Shown: positions 32,968 to 62,736 of the stretch, in pieces
Position numbering within the stretch: position 1 is the first letter of the stretch
How the letters are laid out: each line of letters opens with the position of its first letter
Assembly (NCBI RefSeq): GCF_003660165.1
Contig: NZ_CP032829.1
Coordinates: forward strand, 1,054,001-1,118,000
Origin: Sphingomonas paeninsulae
Lineage (GTDB): Bacteria; Pseudomonadota; Alphaproteobacteria; Sphingomonadales; Sphingomonadaceae
DNA length: 64,000 nt
Direction: 5' to 3'
Translations under genes and position numbers: made by a program
Notes under the pieces: model-generated
Told to the model about the DNA's origin: nothing
The model's input: the letters and a program-made list of their open reading frames with translations, nothing else
The model's database searches: none

Positions 32968-35900
32968 TTAGAAGCTGATGCGAGCGCCGATGCGGATCGC
33001 GTAAAGCGACGATCCGTTGGCCGTTACCAGCTGGTCAGCCAGAAGGTTGGCCGGGGTCGGTGAAGAATACTGATATTGCGCGCAGGTATTCGCTCCTGCG
33101 GCAACACACGTCACACGCACCACGGATTTGTTGTAGTTGAAGGTCGCACGAAGCTGCTGACCCCATTTGTGATTAAGCAGGTTAGTGAAGTTTTCGATAT
33201 CCCCGAACACCGTGAACTTGCTGCCCAAAGGTAATGGAAGCTCCTGCTCAAGATGCAGATCGATCTTTGTGAACGCCTTCGAACGGAAGGCATTGCGAGG
33301 TGCGATCTGGCCCCGATATCCTGCAAGGCCGCTGCCCGTGATGATCGCTTCGACAGCAGCCTGTGTAGCAACGCTGTCATAAGTAACCCGTGGATCGTTT
33401 ACCGTGGGTACATAAAACAGATAACGCGAGTTGCTTCCGGTCGTGCCAAAGACGCTGCTGCGATTGCCGGTCGCATCCTGGAACGTGTAGCTGAACGGCG
33501 ATCCGGCACGCGTTTCACCGAACAGGTTGAGCCGCGTGTGATTGTCGCCAAAGAGCTTCCGATCAAAGCCGACGCCATATTTGAATGACCACTTCACCTG
33601 ATCGTTGGACGGGCCATAAGCCACGACGTTCGGATCGAGATAGGCGCCATTGCTGTAATTCGACAACGCGACAGACGACGTGGCAGGGTTCTGATCCTTT
33701 ACGTCCTGCCTCGTATAGCTGCCAAAGAAGTTGACGCCGAAGTCGAAGGTTTTCTCAAACCTGACGACACCGACATAGCTCCGACCCAGCTTGGAATTCG
33801 TCAGCAAAATATCGTTGTTACCGTCGGTATTGGACACACCGGGAATGGCGTTCTGATAGCGCTGACGACCATCAGGGGTAAACGATCCGGCCACCGGAAT
33901 CGACCGAATATCGGTGAAGAGGACCTGATTGCGAACCTTCGAATAGAAGAAGTCAGCTCCAAAGTTCCACCCGTCGCCCAACGGGCCGAGATTCGCACGA
34001 TAGTCGGCCGACAAGGTTGCCCTGAACTGGGAGGGAGCCTTGAAATTCGGATCGAGCGCCGCAGTGCTGGTGCGGTTGTTCAATACGGTCTGTACACCGG
34101 CAGAAGGCGATATCTGCGAGATGTTGACGTTGTTCAGGATCGACTGGCCATTTGCTGTCGTCGTGTTCGCGCCATTGACCTGATAAGTACCGCCATTGGT
34201 GAGAACTGCACTCAGGCTATTTTGCAGCACGCCGCTGTTGGCAAAGCTGTTCGACACATAGACGTCGGGAGTACCGCCGCCGAAAATACCGCCGCCGCCG
34301 CGAATGCTAATCCGTGAAATCGGGTGGAAGTCGAACCCGACGCGCGGCTGAAACAAGCCAAGACCGTTGATGTAACTGGTATTGGTGAACCCATAGCGTG
34401 ACTGGAAGAACGGGTTAGTGGCAGGCCGACTGGAAAAACCGAACAGATCATAGCGCGCGCCATAAGATACATTAAGCATGTCGTTTACACGCCAGTCGTC
34501 CTGAATACCGAACGTGTACGTCTGGTATCGGAAGCTCGCTGCCGCGTCCTGCTGGTTCAGCGAAGCCGCATTGCTGTAGTTAAAGCTTTGCGCATTACCT
34601 GCCTGATAGTCGGCAATTGAATCGAAATAATAGGTGCCGTTCCCGGGACTCACGAACAGGTTGAACGTATCGACGTTTTGATAGTCCGCCAGTAACCGCA
34701 GATTATGGTCGTTGAGCGAAAGACGCGTGACCAGCGAACCGCCCCATGTCTTTGTGCGCAACACGTTGAACTGGCTCGGACCGCCAGGGCCGATCAGTAC
34801 GCTGGGCGTTCCAACCGGACAAACTGTAGACAGGTTGGTTTGGGCAGGAAGGCCTGCAGGGTCCGACCGATCGGAGGTCGGCGCAGTGCAGATCGTAAAC
34901 TGCGCACCGTTGGCGAGCAGGGGTATCTGGCCGCTCTTGTAATCCTTGTACAGAACGCGTGCTTCGGTCGAAAATGACGACGACCATTGCGAGTTTAGCT
35001 GGAAAATACCGGCATGAACCCGGTTCGGCTTGGTATAGGCATTGGATTCGAGGCCAAGGGACGTGTTGCTGTTGGTCGTTGCCGTGATCAACGAATCCTT
35101 GGTGTAGATATAAGTCAGCGACGCACGCTGCGTGTCAGAAATGTTCGCATCCAGCTTTGCGACCAGGCGGTCGTCCTTATCGCCGTTGCTCCGTAACACG
35201 CCGCCAGCATCATAGCCGTATTTCGTTTTGGCGATGCCGACGATCTGGCTGACAATGGCGTCGGTTACGCCAGGAACGGGCGATCCCGCATTGGTTTCAA
35301 CCGTGCCCGAATTGATCGGCTTGCTGGCGCGGACCCGTTCGCCCGCAACCATGAAGAACAATTTATCGGCGATAATTGGGCCGGAAAGTTCAGCACCAAA
35401 GTCGCGATCTTTGTACTTCGGTGAATTGATGATTCCGGTCGTGTTCGTGATGTACGGCTTTGTGCGCGACCCGATCAAACCATCGGAACTGTATGTGTAA
35501 AACGCCGTGCCGTGGAAATTGTTCGTACCCGACTTCAGGATCGCATTGACCGTACCGCCCTGGAAAAACCCGTCACGGACGTCATATGGCGCGATCTTCG
35601 TCTGGAACTGTTCGATAGCATCGAGTGGCACGGGGCCACGACGCGAGGGAAGTCCATCGGGGTTAAGACCGAAACCGTCCGTGATCGGAACACCGTCGAT
35701 CGTGAAACGATTGTAGCGCGCATTCTGGCCCGCAAAGCTGACGTTCCTGCCACTGGTGCTGCTGGTGTCGAGCGTTGCAAATGGATCGCGCCGCATCAGA
35801 TCGCGGATATCGCGGTTGATGCTGGCGATCTGGGAAATCTGCTCACTGCCAAGAACCGTTGCAGGCCCCTTAGAGACCGTTCCGGCATTCGTCACTTTCG

Positions 35901-36290
35901 AAGCGGTAACGATGATGTCCGCACCACCGGTGGCGATATTGATAGGCAGATTGAACGACTGCCCGGCGACTGTGTACACATCGGTAACCGACGTTCCATT
36001 GACCGTAACGGTGAATGGACCGTAACGGTGAATGGACCGCCGACCCGCAGTCCGCTGACGCTGAAATTGCCGTCTGCACCCGTTTTCGCCGTCGAGCGCG
36101 TGCCCGATGGAACGTGGGTGACAACGACCTCAGCGCCAGACACTGCGGCGTCACCTTCCGTCACCGAACCCTGTATCGATGACGTCGTTTCCTGCGCACT
36201 GGCCGTGTTCGGTGCAACCAGCGTAACGATCGCAAAACCAGGAATCGCGAGCGCAAACAGCGCCGCGCTCGATAAAAGCTGCTTCTTCAT
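32968..36290 (-). pseudogene. Oar-like TonB-dependent receptor disrupted by a 17-bp tandem duplication
   Basis: The gene begins at the ATG of 36288-36290 with a signal peptide (MKKQLLSSAALFALAIPG, cleaved after TASA) and a carboxypeptidase-regulatory-like beta-sandwich (SIQGSVTEGDAAVSGAEVVV). At 36001-36034 the 17-mer GACCGTAACGGTGAATG occurs twice in tandem. This shifts the frame right after GGPFTVTV, and the N-terminal frame then reads into missense and stops near 35892. The remaining 1,000-residue frame encodes an intact plug (VTASKV, RDLMRRDPF) and barrel ending IRIGARISF. Removing one copy restores a 1,101-residue Oar-type receptor. As it stands the signal peptide is separated from the barrel. 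It may be a real mutation, a reversible slippage switch or an assembly error. Confidence 0.85.
36001..36038. repeat. 17-bp tandem duplication inside the TonB-dependent receptor gene
   Basis: GACCGTAACGGTGAATG occupies 36001-36017 and again 36018-36034, followed by the first four bases of a third copy (GACC). The unit is not a multiple of three. The offset between the two open frames is 350 bp (2 modulo 3); subtracting 17 gives 333, exactly in frame. Confidence 0.95.
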
Positions 36291-36455
36291 AAATATGGTA
36301 CCCCCAAGTGGACAATGATGCCCCTGCACAACGCCGCCCTGCGTTATGTCATCGCCCTTGGGATCATTCTGTTGCGGTTCAATGACAGCCGCAACACTTT
36401 GGTAGAATGAAGTAAAAGACTCTTTTGCTGCGTTGCAAAAAAGCCACGTTTTTGA

Positions 36456-37985
36456 CTAATGGCCGACAGCAGGCGCTCCACCTTTCACACTGGGTGCCAT
36501 CCACACGACCATTGCGGCAATCAGGAATATCGATGACGCGATCAGGAATACGTTGAGCATACCGAGGGTCGATGCCTGGATATCCACCAGGTGATCCAGC
36601 GATGCCCGTGCCTGTTCATAAGTGAGCCCACTCTGCTGCATTGCGCTAACCGTAGCTGCCGGATCGTTCAGTGAAGCAACAGCTTCGGACCGGGACACAC
36701 GACTCGCATTATCCCATGCTGTCGTCGCCAGAGCCGTCCCGACCGCGCCCGACAATGTCCGCATGAAGCTCATCAATCCCGCAGCCGACACGGTTTCGCT
36801 GGGTTTCACACTTCCAAGCGTCAACGCCGTAAGCCCGATGAAAAAGAAAGGCATACCTGCGCCCTGCAAAAGCTGCGGTAACGATAGCGTCCAATAGTCG
36901 GCACCCGAGGTCCACCCGGCCCGCAATGCGGAGGTTGCCCCCAAATACAATATTCCTGCGCTGACCATATAGCGCAGGTCGATTTTACCGATCATTCTGG
37001 CGGCAAGGGGAGAGAGAAGTACCGCAAACAAGCCGCCCCATGCCACCGTATATCCGGAATCGGTCGCGGTATAACCAACCACCTGCTGGAGCCAGAGAGG
37101 AGTCAAAACCACGGTTGCGAAATAGGCGCCGAACCCGAGCGAGATCGCAACAGTGCCCGCCAGAAAACCGCGATGCCGAAAGATGCGGATATCCACGATC
37201 GGTTCGTCGGTAGTCAGCTCCCAGATAATGAACGCCACAAATCCGACCAGCGCGATAAGGCCGAGCGTGACGATATAGGCCGAATTAAACCAATCGTTCT
37301 CGCGCCCTGTATCGAGCATGATCTGGAACGCGCCGACGAACAGTACGAGCAATGCCAGTCCGCCCAGATCGATACGACGTTTCACCACCGTCGTTTCATA
37401 TGGAGTGACCAGCCGCGTTACACCGAAAATACAAATGGCGACGACGGGCAAATTGATAAAGAATATCCACGGCCACGACCAGTTATCACTGATCAGACCG
37501 CCGAGAATTGGCCCAAGGATCGGAGCGCACGTCGTTGTCATCGCCCATATACCGAGTCCCACCCCGCTTTTATTCTTGGGAAATATCCGCAGCAGCAATG
37601 TCTGCGATAATGGCATCAAGGGACCACCGGACAGTCCCTGCAGAATACGGAATGTGATGAGCATCCCAAGCGTACCCGAAACGCCGCACAGGAATGAAAA
37701 CACGGCAAAGCCGCACAACGATATAATGAACCAGCGCACACTGCCGAACCGCGCGGACAGCCACCCGGTCAGTGGAACGCTGATCGCATCGGCGACGGCA
37801 TAACTGGTGATGACCCAGGTGCCCTGCGTCGGCGAGACCGCAAGGCCGCCCGCGATGTGAGGCACCGATACGTTGGCAATCGTCGTGTCGAGCACGACGA
37901 CGAAATTGGCGAGCGCGAGCGCAAATGCGGCAAGCAACAGCTTTGCCCCGGTAAGCGGTTCCGGCTCGGCAGGCGCACTTGCCAT
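36456..37985 (-). CDS. emrB: DHA2-family MFS drug exporter (EmrB/QacA-like)
   Basis: The 509-residue transporter is predicted to have 14 transmembrane helices. The N-terminal helix carries the DHA2 motif FVVVLDTTIANVSVPHIAGGL; motif A-like GWLSARFGSVR and a motif C-like block GPILGGLISDNWSWPWIFFINLP follow. It is the inner-membrane component of a tripartite efflux pump with the HlyD-type adaptor (2 bp upstream) and the NodT-type outer-membrane factor. Extrudes hydrophobic toxins or acids by proton antiport. Regulated with the operon by the divergent TetR. Confidence 0.92.
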   Translation of the reverse strand: MASAPAEPEPLTGAKLLLAAFALALANFVVVLDTTIANVSVPHIAGGLAVSPTQGTWVITSYAVADAISVPLTGWLSARFGSVRWFIISLCGFAVFSFLCGVSGTLGMLITFRILQGLSGGPLMPLSQTLLLRIFPKNKSGVGLGIWAMTTTCAPILGPILGGLISDNWSWPWIFFINLPVVAICIFGVTRLVTPYETTVVKRRIDLGGLALLVLFVGAFQIMLDTGRENDWFNSAYIVTLGLIALVGFVAFIIWELTTDEPIVDIRIFRHRGFLAGTVAISLGFGAYFATVVLTPLWLQQVVGYTATDSGYTVAWGGLFAVLLSPLAARMIGKIDLRYMVSAGILYLGATSALRAGWTSGADYWTLSLPQLLQGAGMPFFFIGLTALTLGSVKPSETVSAAGLMSFMRTLSGAVGTALATTAWDNASRVSRSEAVASLNDPAATVSAMQQSGLTYEQARASLDHLVDIQASTLGMLNVFLIASSIFLIAAMVVWMAPSVKGGAPAVGH

Positions 37986-37987
37986 GA

Positions 37988-39184
37988 TTATTCGCGCCCT
38001 GTGTCGCCGCGCGTATCGATTATTGCATCCATCGACAGGCCGACGCGCAATGGATGATCCCGAAGCTCACGCGCATCGAGCGTGACGCGAACCGGTAAAC
38101 GCTGGACAACCTTGATCCAGTTACCCGTCGCGTTCTGCGCGGGAATCAACGAAAACGCCGCGCCGGTCCCGCCCGCATATCCGGTTACGCGACCATGATA
38201 GACCACGCCGCTGCCATAGAAATCCGACGTCAGTTCGACCGGCTGGCCGATCTTTATCCGCCTGAACTGGCTTTCCTTGAAATTGGCATCGACATAAACC
38301 GATGCCAGCGGGACCAGCGTCATGATCGGGGTACCCGCCGCAACCCGCTGTCCGACCTGGACCTGACGGTTCGTCACGACACCATCGATCGGCGCACGGA
38401 TGATCGTGCGTGACAAGTCGAGTTGCGCCTTGTCCAGACGCGCGCGGGCCGATGCCACGTCAGGCGTAGTCGAAACGTTCGTGCCGCGCGTCAAAGCTTC
38501 AGTGGCAGCAACATCGCTCAGCGCCGACGTGCGTGTCGCCTGAGCCGTCGCAATGCCCGCCGCTGCAAGATCGCGATCGGCCTTGGCCGCAGAGTAAGCC
38601 GCACGGGCCGATGAAAGCTCTTCGCCCGATACGGCACCGCTACCCACCAAGGCTTCCCGGCGTGACAAATCCACGCGTGCCCGCTCCAGCTGGGCCACAG
38701 AATCGGCAGCTTTGGCGCGCGCCTGCGCTATGTCGGCGACGCGAGCATCGACTTTGGCGCGGGCCGCACCGACGTTGGCATCTGCCTGTCCGTATCGCTG
38801 CTGCGCTGCGAACAACGCTGCCTGTGCGGTCGCAACATCGACCTTTGCGTCGGCATCGTCGATCACGACCAATATGTCGCCCTTGTGAACGACCTGCGTT
38901 CCTCCGACGCGCACTTCCTTGACGGCCCCGGCAACCAACGGCGTGACCTGCGCCGTGTCTGCACCGACATAGGCGTTATCGGTGTGAACGCGGCCCGCCT
39001 GCGTTACGAAATACCAGATGCCCCAAAGGATCGCGATTACCGCGACCACGATCGCAAGGATCAGAAACAGCTTTTTCCGTTTTGCGTTGTTTTCCCTTGG
39101 GGGAGCCTTGTTCTCCGCCTGATCGTTGGCGGAGGGGCTTTCCTCTTGAGCAGCGGTCATTTCGGATGGGTTTGCGTCGGCCAT
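37988..39184 (-). CDS. emrA: HlyD/EmrA-type membrane-fusion protein
   Basis: The 398-residue periplasmic adaptor has an N-terminal cytoplasmic tail, a single transmembrane anchor (KLFLILAIVVAVIAILWGIWYF) and a lipoyl-like half motif (VHTDNAYVGADTAQVTPLVAGAV). A long alpha-helical hairpin rich in Ala and Arg follows (about residues 115-225), then the second lipoyl half (IRAPIDGVVTNRQVQVGQRV) and a beta-barrel domain. It bridges EmrB and the outer-membrane factor. The start overlaps the nodT stop by one base (TAATG), and the stop lies 2 bp before emrB. Confidence 0.92.
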   Translation of the reverse strand: MADANPSEMTAAQEESPSANDQAENKAPPRENNAKRKKLFLILAIVVAVIAILWGIWYFVTQAGRVHTDNAYVGADTAQVTPLVAGAVKEVRVGGTQVVHKGDILVVIDDADAKVDVATAQAALFAAQQRYGQADANVGAARAKVDARVADIAQARAKAADSVAQLERARVDLSRREALVGSGAVSGEELSSARAAYSAAKADRDLAAAGIATAQATRTSALSDVAATEALTRGTNVSTTPDVASARARLDKAQLDLSRTIIRAPIDGVVTNRQVQVGQRVAAGTPIMTLVPLASVYVDANFKESQFRRIKIGQPVELTSDFYGSGVVYHGRVTGYAGGTGAAFSLIPAQNATGNWIKVVQRLPVRVTLDARELRDHPLRVGLSMDAIIDTRGDTGRE

Positions 39185-40610
39185 TATCTGGCTCCTGATG
39201 AAATTCGGGTGTCACGGTAACCACCGCCAAGGGCACGGATGAGGGCGATGTCGAGCGAAAGGCGACGCGCTTCCAGATCGGCGACGGCGCGTCTGCTGAT
39301 CAACACCGTGTCATCGCCGTTCAGCACCGGCAACTGGTTGGAAAGTCCGCCGCGATATCGAAGTGCTGCGATCTTGCGCGCTTCTTCCGCAGCGGCAAGT
39401 GCCTGACGCTGATCGTTCAGGCGCACATCTGCCGCTTGCCGGCTCGACAAGGCATCGGCGGTTTCCCGTAACGCCGCGATCAACGTCGAATCGTACCGCG
39501 CAACGGCTTCGTCATATTCCCCGCGAGCTCCGCGATAGCGCCCGGCAATCCGGCCACCGTCGAATATCGGCAAGCTGAATGCCGCACCGCCAGTGCCATA
39601 GCTGGAACCGCTGTTGAACAATTGACCCAGGCCCAGCGACTGCAAGCCCACAACTGCCGACAAGCTGATGTTTGGGTAGAAATCGGCCTTCGCGACTTTG
39701 ATCCGCTTGGCCGCGGCTTCTGCACGGAGCCGTGCAGCAACGATGTCCGGACGTCGCCCAATAAGATCGACTCCGGCATTCATTGGCACCCCGGTGGGAG
39801 CATCGCGCAGCACGGGCCGTGCAATCTGCAATCCCCGATCCGGCCCCGCACCAAGCAGCGCGGCGAGGCGGTGTTGGGTCAGTACGATCGCCTCGTCCAG
39901 CGCGGCGATGTCGGCGCGGGCCGAAGGAACGCGTGACTCCGCCTGCCGCAAGCTACCGCGCGTATCGACGCCCACGGCGACACGCTGCGATGTCAGGTCG
40001 ACAGTGGACTGACGAACTTTAAGCGCATCGACCGCAACATCACGCTGGACGTAATATTGCGACAGATCGGCATAGGCCGACGCGATGCCAGTGCTGAGCA
40101 TCAGGCGGGCCTGTTCGAAATCGACGCGTGCGGCTTCGGTTTCTGATGTGGCGGCCGCAAGCGCCGCACGGTCCCTGCCCCACAGATCGAGGTTGAACGA
40201 GAACGTGCCGGTCACACGTCCGGTGTCCTGAATGCCTTTCGGAACGAATGCGGGGGGATGCCCAGATTGTAACTCTGCTTGGTTCCGCCAGCCATACCAT
40301 CGAGCGTTGCACTGGGCAGCAATGCGGCACCGGCCTGCTGTGATAATGCTTCGGCTTGCCGGATGCGAGCGGTAGCTGCGGCGACATCGGGGGAATCCTT
40401 CATGCCCTCGTCGATCAGACCGCTTAACGCAGGATCTCCATAAGCGGTCCACCATTCGGTGGTCGGCCAGTCCGAATGCGTGTGCGGCAGGCTGGTCGCC
40501 GATGCCAAAGTTTCAGGCGCGCGAATCTGCGGCGTTGCACCGAGGTGCGACACTGTTGCGCACCCGCCAAGGCAGACGAGAATTGAAAGGGCAGAAAACG
40601 ACAAACGCAT
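39184..40610 (-). pseudogene. NodT-family outer-membrane efflux lipoprotein with a homopolymer frameshift
   Basis: The start ATG at 40608-40610 gives a lipoprotein signal (MRLSFSALSILVCLGGCATV, lipobox LGGC). The first frame runs through TEWWTAYGDPALSGLI and RIRQAEALSQQAGAALLPS and then breaks at a run of six G (six C on the coding strand) at 40252-40257. The downstream frame continues FVPKGIQDTG, FSFNLDLWGRDRAALAAA and SRRAVADLEARRLSLDIALIRALGGGY to the stop. Adding one C to the run restores the sequence IPPAFVPKG and one continuous protein of about 475 residues. It may be a real loss, a phase-variable tract or a sequencing error. Confidence 0.82.
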
Positions 40611-40621
40611 AGAGAAATGGA

Positions 40622-40637
40622 CCGTACTATCTGGTAC
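40622..40637. promoter_or_regulatory. Putative TetR operator, nodT-proximal
   Basis: CCGTACTATC at 40622-40631 extends to the palindromic GTACTATCTGGTAC (40624-40637), 12 nt upstream of the nodT start on the minus strand. Its 10-base core recurs as the exact reverse complement near the tetR start (40698-40707). Confidence 0.55.
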
Positions 40638-40690
40638 AAAAATTTGATTGCGGCCCACTCGCGCGATTCCGACCAGTTGTCAATTGCAAT

Positions 40691-61939: not shown

Positions 61940-62736
61940 AACGGCAACCAGCGGCTCTTTTCGGTGAACTTCATATAACCGATATTGGCACCCAACCTCA
62001 TCCCGACGCCGAGCCTGACCGGGATCAACACGATATTGCCGCGCCGCAGATAGGTCGCAGAGAATCCGCCTACGAAATAAGCCCGTCCTTCGACTTGTGG
62101 ATATCGGCGGAACAGATCCTGACTGTCATACAGGTTGTAGACGAGCGTAAAGACTTTGGTCGCATCACCGCCGACATCGAAACCGACCGAGGGGCCGGTC
62201 CAATACGCCGGTCGCTGGCCTTCGACCTTGTGGCTGAGCGTACCCGAACCGTAGCGCAAGCCGACGACGAACGCTCCTGATGCTTCCCGGCCTGCGATAT
62301 AGGCGTTCGGTTCGCCCTGATCCTTCAGGATTTTTTCGAGCAGTCCCGCAAGCCCCGCTGCGCCCTTGCCAAACACACCCTCTGCCGCACCGATCAGATC
62401 GTCCTTGTGATAGGTTGGCGTGGCCTGTGTCGCGAGCGAACTGGCAGGAGCAGTCCCTGCCGCCCCTGTCGTCTCAACAGGCACCGTCGTTGTGTCCGCA
62501 GGCGGAGGTGTTTCGTATTGTGGCCTGTCGTACTGTGGCCTGTCATTCTGTGGCTTATCATATTGCGCCTGGGGTGGCGGCGCTTGTGTCGCATAGCCAC
62601 GTTCGCCCGGAACAGGTTGAGAAACATCGGCCTGGGCGGCGGCGTTGGGATCGACCGTCCGAACCTGGGCCAGAACGGGTGTTGCTACCAACGCAAATGC
62701 GGCGGCGATTAGTGAAAATACAGGCTTGCGTAACAT
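61936..62736 (-). CDS. eipA: EipA-like envelope protein (DUF1134)
   Basis: The 266-residue secreted protein has signal peptide [24 protein letters not shown] linker of about 70 residues follows, rich in Pro, Gln and Tyr, containing degenerate five-residue repeats ([15 protein letters not shown]). A DUF1134 domain (about 115-266: [62 protein letters not shown]) completes it. In Brucella and Caulobacter this family maintains envelope integrity in the periplasm. Convergent overlap of 4 bp with pyrC. Confidence 0.88.

Follow-up and report, generated by a model that had tools for sequence, protein, structure and literature searches.

In the Sphingomonas paeninsulae assembly, a gene predicted to encode an Oar-like TonB-dependent receptor is put out of frame by an exact 17-bp tandem duplication, which is probably a real and recent loss-of-function mutation, made by slippage, in a gene that appears to be dispensable. 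The gene lies at 32968-36290 on the minus strand of the 64-kb stretch of DNA that was analysed (the window) and is split between two frames (Table 1). Within it the unit GACCGTAACGGTGAATG is present twice, head to tail and with 0 mismatches, at 36001-36034, after which GACCG extends the match to 36039; on the coding strand the microhomology at the junction reads CGGTC...CGGTC. Tandem Repeats Finder reported 36001-36039 as a repeat of period 17 with 2.3 copies and 100% matches, at a score of 78 that was the maximum for the window. The exact, slippage-type duplication proposed in a preliminary description of this DNA was thereby recovered, as it was by a pattern search, from the start position given there, whereas its end, set at 36038, fell one base short. 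The 17-mer was not found elsewhere in the window with up to 2 mismatches allowed, nor in 100 shuffles. A 15-bp tandem repeat of about 2.8 copies (88% matches) was also seen at 62513-62561 of the window, where there is little coding signal.

Table 1. Features at and beside the receptor gene, numbered from the first base of the window.
Feature	Position	Strand	Details
Exact 17-bp tandem duplication	36001..36039	-	Copies 36001-36017 and 36018-36034, plus 5 bp GACCG at 36035-36039; Tandem Repeats Finder, pattern search
Quasi-palindrome over the site	35991..36023		Arms 35991-36006 and 36008-36023, 88% complementary, 1-nt spacer; inverted-repeat search
Receptor N-terminal fragment	35892..36290	-	PF13620, E 6e-10; 132 aa from ATG at 36290
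Plug and beta-barrel fragment	32968..35979	-	PF25183, E 5e-38; PF07715, E 4e-5
Drug-efflux cluster	36456..40658	-	MFS pump 36456-37985, HlyD-type adaptor 37988-39184, OEP/NodT-type outer-membrane factor 39184-40658

Oar-like proteins are built from a CarboxypepD_reg domain, a Plug domain and a large barrel. These were detected here as PF13620 (39.7 bits, cut-off 32.3), PF07715 (24.4 bits, cut-off 23.9) and PF25183 (OMP_b-brl_4; 131.5 bits, cut-off 30), and on these Pfam domains the earlier assignment of the gene to the Oar-like TonB-dependent receptors is retained; a sequence search of the barrel against solved structures gave no match. The N-terminal fragment starts with the signal-peptide-like MKKQLLSSAALFALA, continues through the CarboxypepD_reg domain and ends, after about 40 out-of-frame residues, at a stop, while the Plug and barrel fragment is open over 1003 aa and has no signal peptide. 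A single exported polypeptide with all domains is thus not encoded in this assembly, where the frame is broken at 36016, but is encoded in 49 relatives. The two open reading frames start at 36329 and 35979, 350 bases apart, and subtraction of one 17-bp copy leaves 333, or 3 x 111; the one-copy reading, made for comparison only, is a single 1101-aa frame that includes FTVTVNGTSVTDVYTVAG. Both this arithmetic and the continuous peptide on removal of one copy agree with what had been described beforehand. The frame is open with one copy and broken with two, and a codon-usage hidden Markov model that was trained on the 64-kb window and was blind to the duplication placed the frame change at 36015/36016.

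The comparison with close relatives called for in the preliminary description was carried out on receptor loci drawn from 118 related genomes and from GTDB species contigs, the search within the genus covering seven genomes, none of them another strain of S. paeninsulae. In 49 out of 49 relatives whose loci extend across the junction, a single open reading frame matched both the N-terminus and the barrel; one genome is represented in this set by at least two loci. Only one copy is present at the corresponding place in the closest ortholog (L032/L003, from genome G003 of the same genus), which is 89% identical in protein and 79% in DNA. As the frame is unbroken in the 49 relatives and the closest ortholog has a single copy, the duplication is derived on the branch leading to the window. 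A tandem duplication at the site was not found in any relative compared, a comparison in which rows L011, L013 and L037 were not valid and L039 was truncated, the first three being covered by the test for one open reading frame. In L032 the match at an offset of 17 is only 3 bp, which is at chance level, and the 5-bp seed is missing.

The anatomy of the site suggests how the duplication could have arisen. In the single-copy reading the unit is flanked by a short direct repeat, a run of 5 at offset 17, and by our own arithmetic, done without a tool, a randomly placed duplication would show a match of at least 5 bp in about 0.5% of cases. The site also sits in a quasi-palindrome, the core of which is present in the single-copy ortholog L032 as well. 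Compared with shuffled sequences, the DNA folded with a z of -3.7 in the single-copy and -4.3 in the two-copy form and with a z of -2.5 in L032, and it is plausible that the hairpin-capable quasi-palindrome is a slippage-prone element. During replication the new strand would slip between the two GACCG repeats 17 bases apart inside the quasi-palindrome so that 17 bases are copied twice. The frame would then be left after about residue 92 and translation would end at residue 132, limiting the product to the signal peptide and the CarboxypepD_reg domain, and the plug and barrel would not be exported as they lack a signal peptide of their own. The same slippage could in principle revert the duplication. 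We infer slippage from the anatomy of the site, and infer likewise the null phenotype and the presence of the duplication in the cell, not merely in the assembly.

Apart from the break, the gene has the appearance of one that was maintained. Against L032 the barrel has a dN of 0.064 and a dS of 1.39, with 463, 90 and 54 differences at codon positions 3, 1 and 2, and the amino-acid changes, polarised by four outgroups, divide into 6 on the branch of the window and 8 on that of L032. This shows strong purifying selection on the barrel until recently. No long relaxation is evident, so the break is either recent or not real. G003 and G001, both of the same genus, have kept the gene order of outer-membrane factor, adaptor, pump, receptor, LytS-type kinase and LytTR regulator, the receptor of G001 being a few remnant blocks (L143:6033-7016) between the pump and the LytS-type kinase, apparently as a result of independent loss. 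G002 and G004 also have the efflux cluster, and the 18-20 kb taken around it yielded no receptor. The receptor is therefore judged from these comparisons to be dispensable and its loss to be common in the genus, and with loss this common no switch is needed as an explanation.

A switch had nevertheless been suggested, the preliminary description having stated that the duplication silences or switches the receptor. As a phase-variation-like contingency locus, the receptor would be turned off whenever the 17-bp repeat is gained and on again once it is lost. Surface receptors, to which this one belongs, are common targets of phase variation, and two exact copies could be reverted by slippage. There is also precedent in the pneumococcal genes cap3A, cap8E and tts, for which passages in PMC4243769 and PMC4022640, citing Waite et al. 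(2001, 2003), describe spontaneous tandem duplications. As described in those passages, a tandem duplication within an open reading frame inactivates the gene for a surface structure and can revert by the loss of one copy, which is the likeness to the present case; reversible variants were observed there, whereas here there is one allele in one assembly, of a dispensable receptor in a sphingomonad relative. The passage in PMC4022640, a study of invasive isolates that cites Waite, gives, for insertions no longer than nine bases, an expected reversion of at most about 1e-5. A contingency locus is improbable here, as the repeat has no more than 2.3 copies, relatives show neither a conserved repeat or seed nor a variable copy number at the site, the match in L032 is confined to the 3 bp noted above and sister species lose the gene outright. 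A functional switch, conceivable in principle, is without positive support in the sequences compared. Silencing stands as likely if the sequence is right, while switching is unsupported, given a single observed allele, the lack of a conserved repeat in relatives, no sign that a switch has been selected for and the loss of the gene elsewhere in the genus. We likewise give little credence to a metastable off-allele, recurrently formed by slippage at the conserved hairpin-forming quasi-palindrome, through which the population would always hold receptor-negative cells.

Other small or tandem changes that break frames offer further comparison. In Mycobacterium tuberculosis, frameshift indels have been described as a form of reversible silencing (Gupta and Alland 2021, PMC8339072) and resemble the present case in being small, frame-breaking and in principle undoable; restored frames were seen there in population data from 5977 isolates, in contrast to the single isolate here. 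The 410-bp tandem duplication in hmgA of Vibrio anguillarum (PMC6787238) similarly shifts the frame of one gene and brings on an early stop, but it is far longer and both variants occurred in a mixed strain. As for the receptor itself, Oar of Myxococcus xanthus has the same domain architecture, compared by description and not by sequence, and is required for secretion of the protease PopC (PMC6434023), whereas the putative receptor described here is known from its sequence.

The receptor might still be made if ribosomes shifted by -1, or transcription slipped, across the duplication. A shift of -1 would bring the two frames together again, neither of them meets a stop over 238 bases, and the RNA with two copies folds well (z -3.2). 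This fold, however, stems from the quasi-palindrome, the N-terminal frame contains no canonical X XXY YYZ heptamer, the region open in both frames has no homopolymer of at least 6, and all relatives manage without frameshifting. Recoding is accordingly considered very improbable.

The more serious rival to a null mutation is an artefact, in which case the receptor would be intact in the cell with a single copy, and the second would have arisen when the consensus was misjoined or mis-stitched in an assembly that was poorly polished and apparently made from long reads. The assembly consists of 3 contigs for 4 Mb, and the genome was sampled as stretches totalling 1.264 Mb. Both rplB (G000:C3:743961, L070) and guaA (C3:727066, L069) are one base short compared with 5 and 6 sister genomes, respectively. 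These are essential genes, so their breaks are very probably consensus errors. The phosphoenolpyruvate carboxylase gene (ppc) is broken at two places, G000:C3:1038317 and 1039826. Pfam domains running across the junction were used to test twenty candidate frame breaks, of which roughly half were clear breaks of single genes, namely those in a TPP enzyme, otsB, bamB, a TPR_21 protein, an S9 peptidase, rplB, a TonB receptor barrel, a ClC channel and, twice, ppc; the break in guaA was confirmed by DNA comparison. Several candidates were merely adjacent genes (PAP2/cation efflux, GGT/AMP-binding and methyltransferase/laccase). The first 464 kb holds the breaks in the TPP enzyme, otsB, bamB, the S9 peptidase, rplB, guaA, the ClC channel and ppc (both), together with one in another TonB receptor.

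Strict breaks numbered 56 in the 1.264 Mb, and a run of at least 5 lay no more than 30 bp away from 43% of them, compared with 12% of random positions. Their density was 3.7-6.0 per 100 kb against 1.75 by the same method in the control genome G004, and at homopolymers of at least 5 it was about 1.9 against 0.25 per 100 kb, or about seven times denser, although the G+C content of 65% in the control and 59% here may affect the break-finding method somewhat. This density of breaks in so few contigs, the missing bases in rplB and guaA, a similar break in the neighbouring outer-membrane factor and a receptor that is otherwise undamaged and not under relaxed selection are all in line with an artefact. 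As the assembly cannot be trusted for indels, the artefact is a serious rival. Errors in long-read consensus are, however, mostly errors of homopolymer length, the usual residue of long-read-only assemblies (PMC8812927), while this is an exact insertion of 17 bp within 30 bp of which no run is longer than 2. The 5-bp microhomology is also more readily explained by polymerase slippage than by random stitching. No other exact tandem duplication with a period of at least 10 was found on a frame break in the 1.264 Mb, and none of those checked with periods of 10-19 falls on one, which indicates that gene-breaking duplication is not a recurrent class of error in this assembly.

A real and recent null mutation is favoured over an artefact on account of the lack of a homopolymer, the slippage-type microhomology and the standing of this duplication as the only one of period at least 10 on a sampled frame break. 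Against this, the assembly is wrong in places and a rarer kind of error could have occurred here; we regard an artefact as possible, albeit rather unlikely. The three outcomes listed in the preliminary description, a phase-variation-like event, a null mutation and a consensus error, were a fair choice, except that consensus error deserves more weight than the letters alone had shown, since the assembly carries many indel errors, including those in rplB and guaA.

A variant of the null mutation, and not exclusive of it, is decay of the whole efflux-receptor cluster with the duplication as one step. The outer-membrane factor, 4 kb away, is likewise frame-broken, while its frame is open where sister genomes of the genus carry it. 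Its break, however, is one base missing near 40250 beside a C run, and being of the same type as those in the essential rplB and guaA it is more likely a consensus error, while the MFS pump and the HlyD-type adaptor are intact. Such decay has a slim chance of being correct.

By itself the finding is a minor one, amounting either to a further gene disrupted by a short tandem duplication or to an assembly error. It also carries a caution, in that the genome holds many false-looking frameshifts and claims of pseudogenes or phase variation drawn from it need the support of reads. Were the off-allele metastable, receptor-negative cells would, for example, withstand phages or bacteriocins that rely on the receptor, and if both alleles occurred in a culture, this would be a clean case of a receptor turned on and off in a sphingomonad.
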